Assembly: GCA_903917735.1 (NCBI GenBank)
Contig: CAIXBR010000046.1
Location: 1-64,000 of the forward strand
Source of the DNA: an uncultured Elusimicrobia bacterium
GTDB taxonomy: Bacteria > Elusimicrobiota > Elusimicrobia > Elusimicrobiales > UBA9959
DNA: 64,000 bases
Reading direction: 5' to 3'
The stretch's first letter is position 1. Every line of letters starts with the position of its first letter. The notes beneath the pieces are model-generated. The model had not been told where the DNA came from and did not search any database. It saw only the letters and a list, made by a program, of their open reading frames with translations. The translations under genes were made by a program, and so were the position numbers. This document shows, in pieces, positions 18,166 through 24,500 of the stretch.

Positions 18166-21100
18166 TTATGCTTTGCCCATGTACTTCTTCCGGAACCAAG
18201 TTTCCAGGTCGTCGAAGAGGGTGTAGGTGACCGGGGTCATCAGCAGGGTGATCAGCAGGGACAGCGACTGGCCGCCGATGATGACCCAGGCCATGGCGCG
18301 GCGGGAGCCGGAGCCGGCGCCCGTGCCCAGCGCCGTCGGAATCATGCTCGCCACCAGCGTCAGCGTAGTCATCAATATCGGGCGCAGCCTTGTCTTGTTG
18401 GCCAGTATCGAGGCCTCGTGCCGCGCCATACCCTTCGCCCGCAGCGTGTTCGTATAGTCCACCTGCAAGATGGAGTTCTTCTTCACGATGCCGAACAGCA
18501 TGAAAATACCCATGATGCTGAACAGCGTCATGCTCTGCCCCGCCACGAACAGCGAGATCACCGCGAACGGCAGCGTCAGGGGCAGCGCTATCAGGATGGA
18601 GATAGGATAGACGAAGCTCTCGAACTGGCTCGCCAGCACGATGTAGATGAAGATGAACGACATGGCGAAGGCCATGATAAATCCCTTCAACATGTTGCCC
18701 AGTTCCTTGGCGCGTCCGGCCGCGCCGCCGGTGTACTCCGCGGGCGGGTTCTGCTTCTTGAATTCCGCGTCCGCTTCCTTAATAAGCTGGCCCAGCGGCA
18801 TGCCGTTGGTGTTGGCCTCTACGGTGATCTTCCTCTGGCGGTTGAAGCGCTCTATCTGCGTGGGGCCGAAGCCCTGCACCACCTTGGCCACGCTGTCCAG
18901 GCGCACCATGCGGCCGCCGGTAGCTGGGATCACCATCGCCTCAATAACTTCCTTCCTGTCGCGGAAGCTCTGGTCAGCGCGCACGCGCACCTGGTAAAGT
19001 TCGTCCGCGTCCTTGAACTTGGTAATGTCCTCTTCTCCGCCCACCAGCGTGCGCAGGGAGAAGGCGATGTCCTCGATCTTCACGCCCAGGTCGTGGGCCC
19101 GGTCGCGGTCTATCTCCACGCGGTACTCGGGCTTGGCGTTGGAGAAGCTCGAGTCAACGTCCACCACGCCTTTCAGCGTCTTCAGGTGGTCGGTCACGGC
19201 CTTGGCGTAGGCCTGCAGTTTGTCCAGGTCCGGCCCGGTCAGGTTGTACTGCAGCTCCTTTTCGCCGCCGCCGCCAAAGCCGCCGATGGGCGCCACGGCG
19301 ATGCGCAGGCCCGTGTACTTGCTCATCATTGCGCGGGAGGTCTCGATGATAGTGTTGAGCTTGGGGCGCTTGGACAGGTCCACCAGCTCTACCAGCACGT
19401 AGCCCTCGTTGGTGGCGGAGGAGCCGGCATGCGAGCCGACGCCCGTGCCTATGGAAGACAGCGTGTTGACCACGTAAGGGATGGCCTTCGTTTCCGCTTC
19501 TATCTGCGAGAACAGCTGCTTCATCACTTCCAGGTTGGTGCCTTCAGGCGCCTTGATGGTGATCTGGTACTGGCCGGTATCGTCCTGCGGCATGAAGTCC
19601 TTGCCGATGAACATGAACAGCGGGACCATGGACAGCATGATGCCGATGGAGCTGACCACCATGACCTTGCGGTGCGACAGCGCCCATTCCAGCAGCACGA
19701 TGTAGCGGCTCGCCAGCCACTCGTTGATGTGGTCGGTAAATTTCTGCATCTTCTTTTTTTCGGACTGCTTCACCTTAAGGAACAGCGAGCACAGCATCGG
19801 CGTGAGCGTCAGCGCCACGAAGGTGCTGATGGCTATGGCGAAGGCGATGGTGAGGCCGTAGCTCTTCACGAAGCGGCCCACTATGCCGCCCATGTAGGCC
19901 AGCGGCACGAAGATGACGATAAGCGAAGCCGACATCGCGATGACGGCGAAGCCGATCTCGTTGGCGCCTTCCAGCGCGGCCTTCACGGGGGAGATCTTAT
20001 GCTCCTCCATGTGGCGGTAGATGTTCTCGAGCATGACGATGGCGTCGTCTATGACTATACCCACGGCTATGGTCATGCCCAGCAGCGTCATGTTGTTGAG
20101 AGTGAAGCCCGCCTGGTCCATGAAAAAGAACGTGGCGATGAGCGAGGCCGGGATGGCCAGCGCCGAGATGATGGTGGAGCGGAAGTCGCCCATGAACACC
20201 AGCACCATAAGGCCCGCCAGCAGCGCGCCCAGCATCAGGTGCTCTTTCACCGTGTCCACCGAGCTCTGGATGAACTCGGACTGGTCGCCGATGATCTTTG
20301 TGTGGATGTCGGAGGGGATGATGGACTGCATCGCGGTGAGCCGCGCGCGGATGTTCTTTACCACCTCCACCGTGTTGGTGCCGGACTGCTTCTTCACCAC
20401 CAGCGTAACGGCGGGTTTGCCGTTCAGGTAGGAGGCCGTGGTCGCGTACTCGCCGGTGTCTTCCACACGGGCTATATCCGAGATGCGGATCGGCGTGCCG
20501 TTCACATTGGAGATCACTATCGAGCTGAAATCCTTAACGTCCTTGATGCGCCCTAGGATGCGGAGCACGAAGTCCTTATCCGTCTGCTCCACCTTGCCGC
20601 CGGGGATCTCTATGTTCTGCTGGGTGATGGCGTCTTTCAGCTGCTTGGTGGAAAGGTTGAGCGAGGCCATTTTAAGAGGGTTCACCACGATGTGGATCTC
20701 GCGCTCGCGGCCGCCCACCATGTCCACCGAGCCCACGCCGCTCACGGTCTCGATATTCTCCTTGATCTTCTTCTTGGCGAAGCGGGTGAGGTCCACCATG
20801 TCCCGGTCACCCGAGACCACGATGTTCACCACGGCCACGGCGCCGATGTCGAACTTGGACACCACGGGCTGGTCGGTGCCCTGCGGCAGCTGGGCCAGCA
20901 CGGCGTTGATCTTGTCGCGCACTTCCTGCGCGGCCACGTCGCCGTCCTTCTCCAGTACGAACTTGATCATCACCATCGACATGCCTTCGTAGCTGGTCGA
21001 GGTGAGCTCGTCTATGCCCGAGATGGTGTTGACGGACTCTTCTATCGGCTTGGTGATGGAGGATTCCACTTCTTCGGGGCCGGCGCCGCGCAGCGTGGTC

Positions 21101-21243
21101 TGCACTATCACGTACGGAAATTCCACATTGGGGAACAGGTCCACGCCCAGGCGGAAGTAGGAAAATACCCCCAGCACCACCAGGGCCGAGATCATCATGG
21201 TGGTAAGAATGGGGCGTTTAACCGCAAGGTCTGTTATTTTCAT
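18166..21243 (-). CDS. RND-family efflux pump, inner-membrane transporter (HAE1-like)
   Basis: A 1025-residue proton-driven exporter with the AcrB layout: a first helix (ILTTMMISALVVLGVFSYF), a large porter loop, six helices, a second loop, and five further helices. TM4 carries GIVIDDAIVMLEN with the paired Asp residues of the proton relay. The family GSSATNEGYV and LFLKVK regions are present, and length is typical. It is the last gene of the operon behind the TetR-TolC fusion and the adaptor, giving a complete tripartite pump. Substrates cannot be told from sequence. The ATG lacks a clear Shine-Dalgarno, and a palindromic repeat fills the gap before it. Confidence 0.93.
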   Translation of the reverse strand: MKITDLAVKRPILTTMMISALVVLGVFSYFRLGVDLFPNVEFPYVIVQTTLRGAGPEEVESSITKPIEESVNTISGIDELTSTSYEGMSMVMIKFVLEKDGDVAAQEVRDKINAVLAQLPQGTDQPVVSKFDIGAVAVVNIVVSGDRDMVDLTRFAKKKIKENIETVSGVGSVDMVGGREREIHIVVNPLKMASLNLSTKQLKDAITQQNIEIPGGKVEQTDKDFVLRILGRIKDVKDFSSIVISNVNGTPIRISDIARVEDTGEYATTASYLNGKPAVTLVVKKQSGTNTVEVVKNIRARLTAMQSIIPSDIHTKIIGDQSEFIQSSVDTVKEHLMLGALLAGLMVLVFMGDFRSTIISALAIPASLIATFFFMDQAGFTLNNMTLLGMTIAVGIVIDDAIVMLENIYRHMEEHKISPVKAALEGANEIGFAVIAMSASLIVIFVPLAYMGGIVGRFVKSYGLTIAFAIAISTFVALTLTPMLCSLFLKVKQSEKKKMQKFTDHINEWLASRYIVLLEWALSHRKVMVVSSIGIMLSMVPLFMFIGKDFMPQDDTGQYQITIKAPEGTNLEVMKQLFSQIEAETKAIPYVVNTLSSIGTGVGSHAGSSATNEGYVLVELVDLSKRPKLNTIIETSRAMMSKYTGLRIAVAPIGGFGGGGEKELQYNLTGPDLDKLQAYAKAVTDHLKTLKGVVDVDSSFSNAKPEYRVEIDRDRAHDLGVKIEDIAFSLRTLVGGEEDITKFKDADELYQVRVRADQSFRDRKEVIEAMVIPATGGRMVRLDSVAKVVQGFGPTQIERFNRQRKITVEANTNGMPLGQLIKEADAEFKKQNPPAEYTGGAAGRAKELGNMLKGFIMAFAMSFIFIYIVLASQFESFVYPISILIALPLTLPFAVISLFVAGQSMTLFSIMGIFMLFGIVKKNSILQVDYTNTLRAKGMARHEASILANKTRLRPILMTTLTLVASMIPTALGTGAGSGSRRAMAWVIIGGQSLSLLITLLMTPVTYTLFDDLETWFRKKYMGKA

Positions 21244-21269
21244 AAGAAAGATGAGTACCGCATTTTTAT

Positions 21270-21429
21270 TTCACCGCAGAGGCGCAGAGGAGGATGAGTC
21301 AAAAAGAAAAGAATGTGAACGCGAGAAAATAATTTTCTGAATTTTTCTCTTTTCCCCTCCAGCCTCCTCTTCCTCTGCGTCCTGTTAGATACGGCTGAAT
21401 TGCGTCGCTTCGTTCCACCCCGCGGTGAA
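21270..21429. repeat. TTCACCGCAGAG-type palindromic repeat, copy 1
   Basis: TTCACCGCAGAGGCGCAGAG (21270) is mirrored by CCTCTGCGTCC near 21370-21382 and closes with CGCGGTGAA (21421-21429). Related repeats lie at 36296 and 56312. It occupies the gap between the adaptor and pump genes. Confidence 0.7.
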
Positions 21430-21435
21430 TTCTTG

Positions 21436-22326
21436 TTAGTTCTGCACCTTTATCTTGCTGCCGTCCTTCAGGCCGTACAGGCCGAAGGTTATCAGCTCGT
21501 CCCCGGCCTTAAGCCCGGCGGAGATCTGTATCGTGTCGTCGTTGCGGATGCCGGTCTTTATTTCGCGGCGCAGTGCCGTCCCGTTGACGGGCACAAAGAC
21601 GTAAGGCTTGCCGTTCTCGTTGAGGACCGCGGATGCCGGCACCGCCACCGCGCCGCTCTTGGCGCCTACCACCAGGCGTATTTCGGAGAACATGCCGGAT
21701 TTGAGCCTGCCGGTGGTGTTATCCGCCAGCAATTCTATGGCCGCGCTCCTGGTTTTGGTGTCCACCACGGGGCTGACCCTGTAAACCTTGCCGCGGAACA
21801 GCGTGTCCGGGTAGGCGTCAACCTTGATGTAGGCCTCCTGGCCCATAAAAACCTTGCCCACATAGCGCTCGGGCACGTCCACCACCACGCGCACCTGGCC
21901 CTGACTTACCACCAGGGCTATCGGGGTGGCCGGCGTGACGTTGGAGCCGGAGTCCTGATAAACGCGGCCTATCACTCCGGTAAGGGTGGAGGGCACCGGC
22001 GCCGGCTCGTAAACCACGCCGGGCTCGTCGCGCTCTATCAGCGCAACCGGCTGATCCTTCGTTACCGCGTCGCCTTCCGTTACCAGGTTCTTCAGGAGTT
22101 TCCCGGAGACCCTGGGGAAAAGCACGGCCTCGTCCATGGCTTTCACCGAGCCCACAAGGATTAGGTAATCCTCTATGTTCTTTACCTGGGCTTTGTCGGT
22201 CTTTACCAGGAAGCGGTCCTTTTCAAGGCTGTTGAAGGCGGCCAGGTCCTTGTTCTTGCAGCCGGCCGCGGCAGCCGCGGCGGCCGCCAGCGCTAAAATA
22301 AATATTCTGGTTTTAATGTTTTTCAT
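21436..22326 (-). CDS. RND efflux periplasmic adaptor (membrane fusion protein)
   Basis: A 296-residue adaptor that would link the RND pump to its TolC-type channel. The N-terminus is a signal peptide with a long alanine run ending AAGC, so it may be a lipoprotein. A split lipoyl/beta-barrel core follows (LFPRVSGKLLKNLVTEGDAV, then GVIGRVYQDSGSNVTP) and the membrane-proximal domain near the C-terminus. It lacks the long alpha-helical hairpin of AcrA, hence the short length. AGAGAGA precedes the ATG. Confidence 0.87.
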   Translation of the reverse strand: MKNIKTRIFILALAAAAAAAAGCKNKDLAAFNSLEKDRFLVKTDKAQVKNIEDYLILVGSVKAMDEAVLFPRVSGKLLKNLVTEGDAVTKDQPVALIERDEPGVVYEPAPVPSTLTGVIGRVYQDSGSNVTPATPIALVVSQGQVRVVVDVPERYVGKVFMGQEAYIKVDAYPDTLFRGKVYRVSPVVDTKTRSAAIELLADNTTGRLKSGMFSEIRLVVGAKSGAVAVPASAVLNENGKPYVFVPVNGTALRREIKTGIRNDDTIQISAGLKAGDELITFGLYGLKDGSKIKVQN

Positions 22327-22378
22327 AAATTCTCTCTGTACTTTGTAATGATTCCCGATTCTCGACTTCCGGTCTTCC

Positions 22379-24265
22379 CTATTCCCCCAGCGTCCACTTC
22401 AGCTGCGCGTCCGCGGAGCAGGTGTCGTGCTGGGCCTGCGTGTAAAGGGTCTGGGACTTGTTCAGCGCCAGCGAGGCGTCGTTGAGCTCAAGCTGGCTGG
22501 CCAGGCCGTTCTTGAACCTGACCTCCGTTGCGGTCAGCGCCTTGCGCGCCTGCTCTACGGCGGCGGTCTGCGAGGCAAGCCTTTCGGAGGCTTCCGTTAT
22601 GCTGAGCCAGGCCTTCTTGACCTCTATTTTCACGGCGCGCTCCAGTTCCGCCAGGTTCGTCCGGGCTATTTCGGCCTGCAGCTCGGCCTGCTTGGTCCTG
22701 GAGGTTATGGAGCCGCCGGAGAAAAGCGGCAGGGAAAGGCTTAAGCCGGCGGAGGTGCTCCAGTTTTGGGCTGCGGCTCCGGGGAAGCCCGACTCGCTCT
22801 GTGCCTGGAACTGCCTGGAGGCGAAGGCGCTCAGGTAGGGGAAATGCCCCGCCCGTTCTATTTTTATCATTTCGGTGTAGAGGGCCAGTTGGTACTTCTG
22901 GTTGCGGTACTCAGGGCGGTTCATCAGCGCCTGTCTGTAAAGCTCCGTTACTTCCCCGGGGCCTGCTTGGCAGTCGAATTTACCTGACAGCGAGATGTCG
23001 GTCTCGGGGTCAAGACCCAGCAGGTTCTTCAGGTCTATCAGGCCCTCCTCGTACAGGTTCTGGGCCTGGGTGAGGGCTGGTTCTGTATTGGAGACCTCTA
23101 CTTTCTGTCTGAGGACCTCCAGGTCGCTGGCTACGCCCTGCTTATATTGCGCGTCTATCATGTCCAGATGCTGCCGGGCCAGGTCCAGCGACTCTTTCTG
23201 TATGCCGGCCATGGACTTAGCCAGCAGTACGGAGTAATAGACCTGTTTTACGTCTTTGGACACTTCCTTCTGGGCGGTCTTCAGCTGTTCGTCGCTGGCC
23301 CTGGAATAAAGATCGGCCATTTTTATGCCGGTGCTTACCTTGCCGCCGGCCCAGAGCACCTGGTTCAGGTTCAGGCCGGCTGTGTAGGCGTTGTTCAGCC
23401 CCATCTTCACCTTGGCGGAGCCCAAAAAGAAAACGGGGGATTCTATGTTGCGGGTATACTGGGCGCTGGCGCTGAGCTGGGGATAAACCGTGCCCCAGTA
23501 TTCCGTGACCTTTTCCTTATATATAGCGCGGGTCTCTTCTGCGGTTCTCACGGTGGCGTTGTTCTTAAGCGCGGTCCGCACCGCGCCGTCCACCGTCAGG
23601 TCCAGCGCGCCGGCCCTGGCCAGCAGGGGGGAAAGCAGTATTATTACCAGCGCCGCCTTGAGATTTTTCACCCCGGCCGCTATCAGTTTGGCCATGCGCT
23701 GCGGCAGGTCCTTGGGCAGGCTATCTATGCCGCGTTGGCGGGCCTCTATCATTAAATGAGTTATTACCGCGCTTATCATGTGCATGACGGTGTCCGCGTG
23801 GGAGCGCGAGAGGCCGTCTTTGCCGGTGCCCTCGCCCAGGATCCTGGTAAGGTTCTCGCGGTTCTGCTCCTTGAGTTCCAGCGCCATGGAGTTCAGCACA
23901 CTGTTGGAAGGGGAGGCCATGATCTTCAGCGCGCATTTGGGCATGTTCGGATAGCGCTTTATGAAGTCCACGTGGTTGGAGAAGATCTTGGCCAGTTTCT
24001 GCTCCAGCGTCAGGCCGGGCTTGCTTATTTCAGCCTGCAGTTCCCTGAAATGTTTCGTCCCCTCTATGAAGGAGGCCTTTATCAGCTCATCTTTGTCCTT
24101 GAAATAATAGTAGAGGACGGGCTTGGTGATCTTCAGCTTGGCGGAGATCTCCCGCATGGAGACCGCGTCCGGGCCCTTCTCGGCCATCAGCGCGGAAGCC
24201 ATTTCTATTATCCGCTGGCGGGTCTTGTCGCCCTTGGTTATCTTGAGGGATATTTGTTGGTTCAT
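22379..24265 (-). CDS. In-frame fusion: TetR-family regulator + TolC-family outer-membrane channel
   Basis: A single 628-residue frame with two incompatible halves. Residues 1-198 are a TetR/AcrR regulator: helix-turn-helix SMREISAKLKITKPVLYYYF, then a helical ligand domain. From residue 199 (a GTG codon at 23671-23669) the sequence reads VKNLKAALVIILLSPLLARAGA, a signal peptide, followed by a ~410-residue TolC family channel with two repeats and periplasmic coiled-coil helices. There is no stop between them. Either both are made as one chain, or TolC starts at the GTG, possibly coupled to translation of TetR, or a stop has been lost. The adaptor and pump genes follow, so the unit encodes a self-regulated tripartite efflux system. 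Confidence 0.88.
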   Translation of the reverse strand: MNQQISLKITKGDKTRQRIIEMASALMAEKGPDAVSMREISAKLKITKPVLYYYFKDKDELIKASFIEGTKHFRELQAEISKPGLTLEQKLAKIFSNHVDFIKRYPNMPKCALKIMASPSNSVLNSMALELKEQNRENLTRILGEGTGKDGLSRSHADTVMHMISAVITHLMIEARQRGIDSLPKDLPQRMAKLIAAGVKNLKAALVIILLSPLLARAGALDLTVDGAVRTALKNNATVRTAEETRAIYKEKVTEYWGTVYPQLSASAQYTRNIESPVFFLGSAKVKMGLNNAYTAGLNLNQVLWAGGKVSTGIKMADLYSRASDEQLKTAQKEVSKDVKQVYYSVLLAKSMAGIQKESLDLARQHLDMIDAQYKQGVASDLEVLRQKVEVSNTEPALTQAQNLYEEGLIDLKNLLGLDPETDISLSGKFDCQAGPGEVTELYRQALMNRPEYRNQKYQLALYTEMIKIERAGHFPYLSAFASRQFQAQSESGFPGAAAQNWSTSAGLSLSLPLFSGGSITSRTKQAELQAEIARTNLAELERAVKIEVKKAWLSITEASERLASQTAAVEQARKALTATEVRFKNGLASQLELNDASLALNKSQTLYTQAQHDTCSADAQLKWTLGE

Positions 24266-24272
24266 AAAAAAC

Positions 24273-24286
24273 TTACCTACCGGTAA
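24273..24286. promoter_or_regulatory. Candidate TetR operator over the ribosome-binding site
   Basis: TTACCTACCGGTAA has TTACC/GGTAA arms and a TACCGGTA palindrome, and ends only 8 nt before the ATG of the tetR-tolC gene. On the coding strand the same bases give TAGGTAAG, the only Shine-Dalgarno-like stretch, so repressor binding would fall at the 5' end of the message. Autorepression is inferred from TetR family habit. Confidence 0.55.
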
Positions 24287-24424
24287 ATAAATTATAACAG
24301 ACCGCGGCTCGGGTTGTCAATAGGGCCAAAGGGCCTATTCCGGGGTAGGTCTTAATATTTATTGTTTTTGGGCCCTATGCCTCTATTGTCTTTTGTCAAA
24401 GAGGTATAGAATTATCACCGTAGT

Positions 24425-24500
24425 GTTATGTTACCCTTGTAATCCCCCGAAAACAGGCGGGGGAGAATCCACCGGTGGGCCTTAACCCGCTGTAACCAGG
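24425..24500 (+). ncRNA. Structured leader, possibly a riboswitch or attenuator
   Basis: Three stems can form a three-way junction: an outer stem CCCTTG/CAGGGG, a hairpin CCCCCG/CGGGGG around 24446-24465, and CGGTGGG/CCCGCTG with G-U pairs near 24474-24493. A terminator hairpin follows at once, then the gene at 24559. I could not match it to a riboswitch class that I know. TATAGA near 24405 may be the -10. The rest of 24287-24424 shows only a short hairpin near 24320-24342. Confidence 0.4.

Follow-up and report, generated by a model that had tools for sequence, protein, structure and literature searches.

A TetR-type repressor and a TolC-type channel in one reading frame of Elusimicrobiota: a likely polyprotein at the head of an RND efflux operon

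The final destinations of a DNA-binding repressor and of an outer-membrane channel lie at opposite places in the cell. When both are encoded on one chain, either the chain must be cut at an internal signal or the repressor must be membrane-bound, and either route, if true, would be an uncommon bacterial coupling of protein export to gene control. Such a chain is encoded in a 64,000-nucleotide stretch of DNA from an uncultured Elusimicrobia bacterium, the whole of which is hereafter called the window. Local TetR regulators are the norm for tripartite pumps (PMC8277102). A fusion of repressor and channel could link the export of a pump with the control of its genes. The locus raises the question of how the two halves are made and separated, and of whether the repressor half still works.

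The gene occupies positions 22379 to 24265 on the minus strand as a single open frame of 628 codons, which begins with ATG and is free of stops throughout. The encoded chain opens with a TetR-family repressor and closes with a complete TolC-type channel; between them lie a short linker and then a signal-peptide-like segment. The initial annotation had described one frame joining a repressor domain to TolC, and the open reading frame and its Pfam domains bear this out. The TetR/AcrR-type repressor domain (residues 1-186; 23708-24265) matched TetR_N (PF00440) over its helix-turn-helix (HTH) at residues 19-64 with 52.6 bits against a cutoff of 24 (E 3.8e-14). In the junction (residues 187-203; 23657-23707), the last TetR helix continues into a basic n-region, which is followed by the internal signal-peptide-like segment (residues 204-221; 23603-23656), with A-x-A preceding the mature channel. 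The channel (residues 222-628; 22382-23602) contains two OEP repeats (PF02321, 212 bits in two stretches, E 7.6e-63, the best stretch being 441-623). Both the TetR and TolC folds were intact in an AlphaFold model, in which helices at 71-178 formed part of the TetR ligand-binding/dimer domain, a helix at 187-209 ran across the junction, and pLDDT was below 50 at 203-218. Foldseek matched the repressor half to HapR (TMt 0.75) and the channel half to Escherichia coli TolC and OprM (TMt 0.67-0.74; 1ek9, 0.72). The channel is encoded together with the other components of a pump, since genes for an RND periplasmic adaptor (membrane fusion protein, MFP; 21436-22326; TIGR01730 RND_mfp, above cutoff) and an RND inner-membrane pump (18166-21243; ACR_tran, PF00873, E 5.7e-270) lie downstream on the same strand.

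We consider it fairly likely that this first gene of the RND efflux operon encodes a polyprotein in which an internal Sec signal peptide connects a functional TetR-type autorepressor to a TolC channel. Translation would start at the ATG at 24265 and cover the whole frame. The hydrophobic segment (204-221) would direct the C-terminal part into the Sec pathway, and signal peptidase I would cut after A-x-A, whereupon TolC would move on to the outer membrane. What remains in the cytoplasm would be the TetR part, with the signal peptide at its C terminus as a short stub in the membrane that may be trimmed afterwards. As a dimer, the TetR part would occupy TTACCTACCGGTAGGTAA at the promoter of its own operon, and in some genomes at other efflux promoters, until released by a ligand. 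One repressor molecule would be made per channel subunit. Export, cleavage, the stub, and the location of the repressor are read from the sequence, with cleavage judged by motif only. It counts against this reading that a folded 200-residue N-terminal domain ahead of a Sec signal is unusual.

A full-length, stop-free TetR-TolC frame was present in 47 of the 59 genomes of the family, a count that was taken from the search table and leaves out the second type of fusion described below. These frames span ten genera and are 34-78% identical to that of the window; the fused frame also occurred in two other families of the class (G169, 45%; G212, 43%). The junction first noticed in one contig is thus in frame in other genomes, and the same frame in 47 genomes of the family rules out chance, an assembly error, or a stop lost in one assembly. 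Within the genus, 30 of 32 genomes carried the fused frame, the two without it being G007 and G022. A tree built on the TolC part contained a supported 43-row clade, made up of 40 fused, two partial, and one split form. The split row was the sister species G079, in which two genes overlap by ATGA (ACATGAAAATG; L146:3616-5615 (+), the same locus as L022) and which provides a natural control for the fusion. The sister family f2 also has split forms, and these fell outside the fused clade. One fusion followed by one re-split in G079 fits the 43-row clade best, and the relation of G169 and G212 to this clade is less certain. The initial annotation had taken separate genes in close relatives as grounds for refuting the fusion. 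Separate genes do exist, in G079 and in another family of the order; however, the conserved fusion stands, because the former is a nested re-split and the latter an outlying split form. The arrangement is an old one in Elusimicrobiota; it has been conserved and is apparently functional.

A second TetR-TolC fusion, 26% identical, was observed at L119:4180-6102 (-) (G028:C51) and L143:3554-5500 (-) (G074:C27). Adaptor and RND pump genes follow this fusion, and a further TetR gene immediately precedes it. The TolC part of these two loci clusters with split relatives (SH-aLRT 99%), so TetR and TolC were fused on at least two separate occasions. Searches under strict E-value cut-offs of a partial sample, namely 395 Bacteroidota genomes and 395 genomes of another phylum reached from a deltaproteobacterium, yielded no similar fusion in this TolC subfamily.

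The persistence of the fusion may have no regulatory meaning. One stop may have been lost between adjacent in-frame genes, and the product tolerated because the signal peptide works internally. We regard this as a possible, though not the likelier, account; it concerns why the fusion persists and is compatible with the polyprotein mechanism. It is consistent with family f2, in which tetR and tolC often share one frame with a single stop between them, and with the re-split in G079. It also agrees with a headless paralogue in the window's own genome (C47, L111:6395-7930 (+)), in which an in-frame deletion removed the recognition helix and the ligand domain; what is left remains joined to a TolC on which selection is strong (dN/dS 0.08 versus L082). 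In G163 (L148:3938-5458 (+), the same locus as L020), the C-terminal half of TetR was kept, and the HTH and the operator were lost. These two variants indicate that TolC needs no intact TetR and that an upstream TetR remnant is tolerated, which leaves room for a neutral origin. On the other hand, the fusion was retained across at least ten genera with one clear re-split in the 43-row clade, and a second, independent TetR-TolC fusion arose in the same phylum. In the C47 operon, the operator was degraded and a clear -10 box was not seen.

The initial annotation had also raised the translation of TolC from a GTG at the junction (23669-23671), so that one gene would give two products. Initiation inside the gene, close to the junction, would then supply some or all of the TolC, with the long form acting as the repressor. 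We find this unlikely. The GTG at 23671 is present with a very weak Shine-Dalgarno sequence (duplex -1.7 kcal/mol), and the nearest relative of the same genus, L082 (78% identity), has an isoleucine codon in its place, with other codons elsewhere. In 20 of the 42 fused loci, the 20 codons preceding the hydrophobic segment contained no ATG, GTG, or TTG, and in 12 loci none occurred within 30 codons. The GTG start was thus not upheld, and the comparison of codons across the fused loci rejected it as a conserved feature. Shine-Dalgarno strength at the junction codons was near the internal background (mean -3.5 versus -2.6). The junction showed zero indels within the genus, and its synonymous rate was not depressed, a result that also rules out a hidden ribosome-binding element there. 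Moreover, the repressor form would still bear TolC, and cleavage would be required anyway. In favor of two products, approximately ten relatives have an ATG or TTG directly ahead of the hydrophobic stretch, and split genes, such as those with the ATGA overlap in G079, place the TolC start at this point. A possible start within 20 codons in 22 of the 42 loci counts against the polyprotein, and six loci had a fair Shine-Dalgarno sequence within 30 codons. Additional internal initiation in some species is possible.

Because no stop divides the halves, every TetR molecule starts within a TetR-TolC chain. The lack of a stop, together with that of a conserved internal start, favors translation of the whole frame, export through the internal signal, and putative cleavage by signal peptidase I. 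The junction is composed of basic residues, a hydrophobic run, and then A-x-A ahead of the mature channel. The uncharged run is 13 residues long in the window and mostly 13-18 across the fused loci, and A-x-A was present in 36 of the 42 loci; the six without it weigh against the polyprotein. A hydrophobic run of this length with A-x-A is more like a cleavable signal than an uncut transmembrane helix. The idea that an internal signal-like segment could be cut to free both parts is thereby corroborated at the level of motifs. The segment is internal (204-221) and not at the N terminus of the primary translation product, a position that is usual for TolC and other outer membrane factors without strictly defining them.

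The signal may alternatively be left uncut, or the stub may matter, such that the protein is a membrane-anchored one-component regulator whose TetR part is active only at the membrane and reports the success of TolC export. This appears doubtful, and more so than the two-product reading. In its favor, A-x-A is lacking in G071 and G064, where the hydrophobic stretch follows the last TetR helix without a break, and selection acts on TetR while it is fused. However, the usual run is short for an anchor, most loci keep A-x-A, TolC has to reach the outer membrane, and the sister species G079 manages without a fusion. A more speculative reading is a built-in export checkpoint, in which the repressor would be activated, released, or held at the membrane according to the translocation and cutting of its own TolC half, with operon transcription set by export success and by the one-to-one supply of repressor per channel subunit; we think such a checkpoint improbable, though somewhat less so than internal initiation.

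Judged by its sequence, the repressor half is functional. In pooled close pairs, dN/dS was 0.084 in the HTH, 0.165 in the ligand domain, and 0.22 in TolC, which places the TetR half, and its HTH in particular, under strong purifying selection. The HTH residues K48, P49, Y52, and Y53 were invariant in 34 sequences. Although C47 and G163 lack parts of TetR, these dN/dS values, the invariant residues, and an operator that is conserved and co-occurs with the gene lead us to reject the reading of the TetR half as a dead remnant, which we regard as very improbable.

That operator lies directly upstream of the gene. A sigma-70-type promoter, TTGACA-N18-TATAAT, with 12 of 12 consensus matches was located at 24320-24291 and was the sole minus-strand promoter match within 21000-24500. 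The palindrome TTACCTACCGGTAAATAA (24273-24290; consensus TTACCTACCGGTAGGTAA) adjoins its -10 box and ends 7 nt before the ATG, such that the upstream region reads promoter, TTATTTACCGGTAGGTAA, and start codon 7 nt further on. With up to 4 mismatches allowed, every one of the 42 fused loci examined had the consensus between its promoter and its ATG, and -35 and -10 motifs were each found in the same place in 39 of them. At up to 2 mismatches, 29 of the 32 genus genomes contained the site (chance expectation approximately 0.06 per 3 Mb), and a reversed-pattern control gave 0 in all. At this threshold, the site was not found in G007 and G022, the two genus genomes without the fused gene, or in G030, which carries the gene. 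The operator core also precedes tetR in many split loci of family f2. We infer that the TetR part binds this palindrome at its own promoter and responds to a ligand.

The fusion shares features with several known systems. As in repressors of the AcrR/TtgR/MtrR type, a TetR fold goes with a palindromic operator over the pump promoter and with a pump operon as the probable target; however, those repressors are separate and usually divergently encoded proteins, whereas the repressor here forms the N-terminal portion of the channel protein. The channel resembles TolC and OprM in its two OEP repeats, its fold, and its operon with an MFP and an RND pump, but differs in having a 200-residue cytoplasmic DNA-binding domain in front and an internal signal peptide. 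FbcH of Bradyrhizobium is a cytochrome b-cytochrome c1 polyprotein from a fused gene, the product of which is cut at an internal signal peptide. Both FbcH products are membrane-bound respiratory proteins, whereas one product here would be a transcription factor. ToxR and CadC are membrane-bound one-component regulators with a winged helix, a periplasmic sensor, and a true membrane anchor. In them, too, a single chain crossing the inner membrane carries a DNA-binding domain and an exported part, but they do not combine TetR with an outer-membrane channel. In two genomes of the Bacteroidota phylum (L189:847-5517 (-) and L190:163-5070 (+); 1557 and 1636 aa), an RND-type pump is joined to a C-terminal TolC, and the partner is thus also part of the pump system, but a pump rather than a repressor. 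No description of a TetR-TolC fusion was found in the literature searched, which was of limited coverage. As far as searched, the joining of TetR to TolC through an internal signal, under a conserved autoregulatory operator, is new, local TetR repressors and TolC themselves being standard; these proteins may already be present in protein databases under a generic name. With the conserved operator, several trans targets, and fused, re-split (ATGA), and headless variants all available in one family, the question can be tested directly.

The window's genome contained three operator sites at up to 3 mismatches versus approximately 1.2 expected by chance: at the fused operon, at the paralogous RND operon (C47), and at a TolC-MFP-MacB operon (C84). 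Apart from the truncated paralogue, the other TetR proteins of this genome showed no likeness to the repressor beyond 36% over short stretches. The MacB-type operon carried the operator site in five other genomes as well, mostly directly after the -10 box, such that promoter-operator units precede TolC-MFP-MacB operons in six genomes altogether. The repressor probably acts in trans on other efflux operons, because the same unit precedes operons of the MacAB-TolC and MlaC-TolC-MMPL types. The latter was observed in G016 (L178:2832-7440 (+)), where the unit heads an MlaC-TolC-MMPL operon and suggests a wider envelope-efflux regulon. In G029, an operator site was similarly located ahead of an operon with MlaC.
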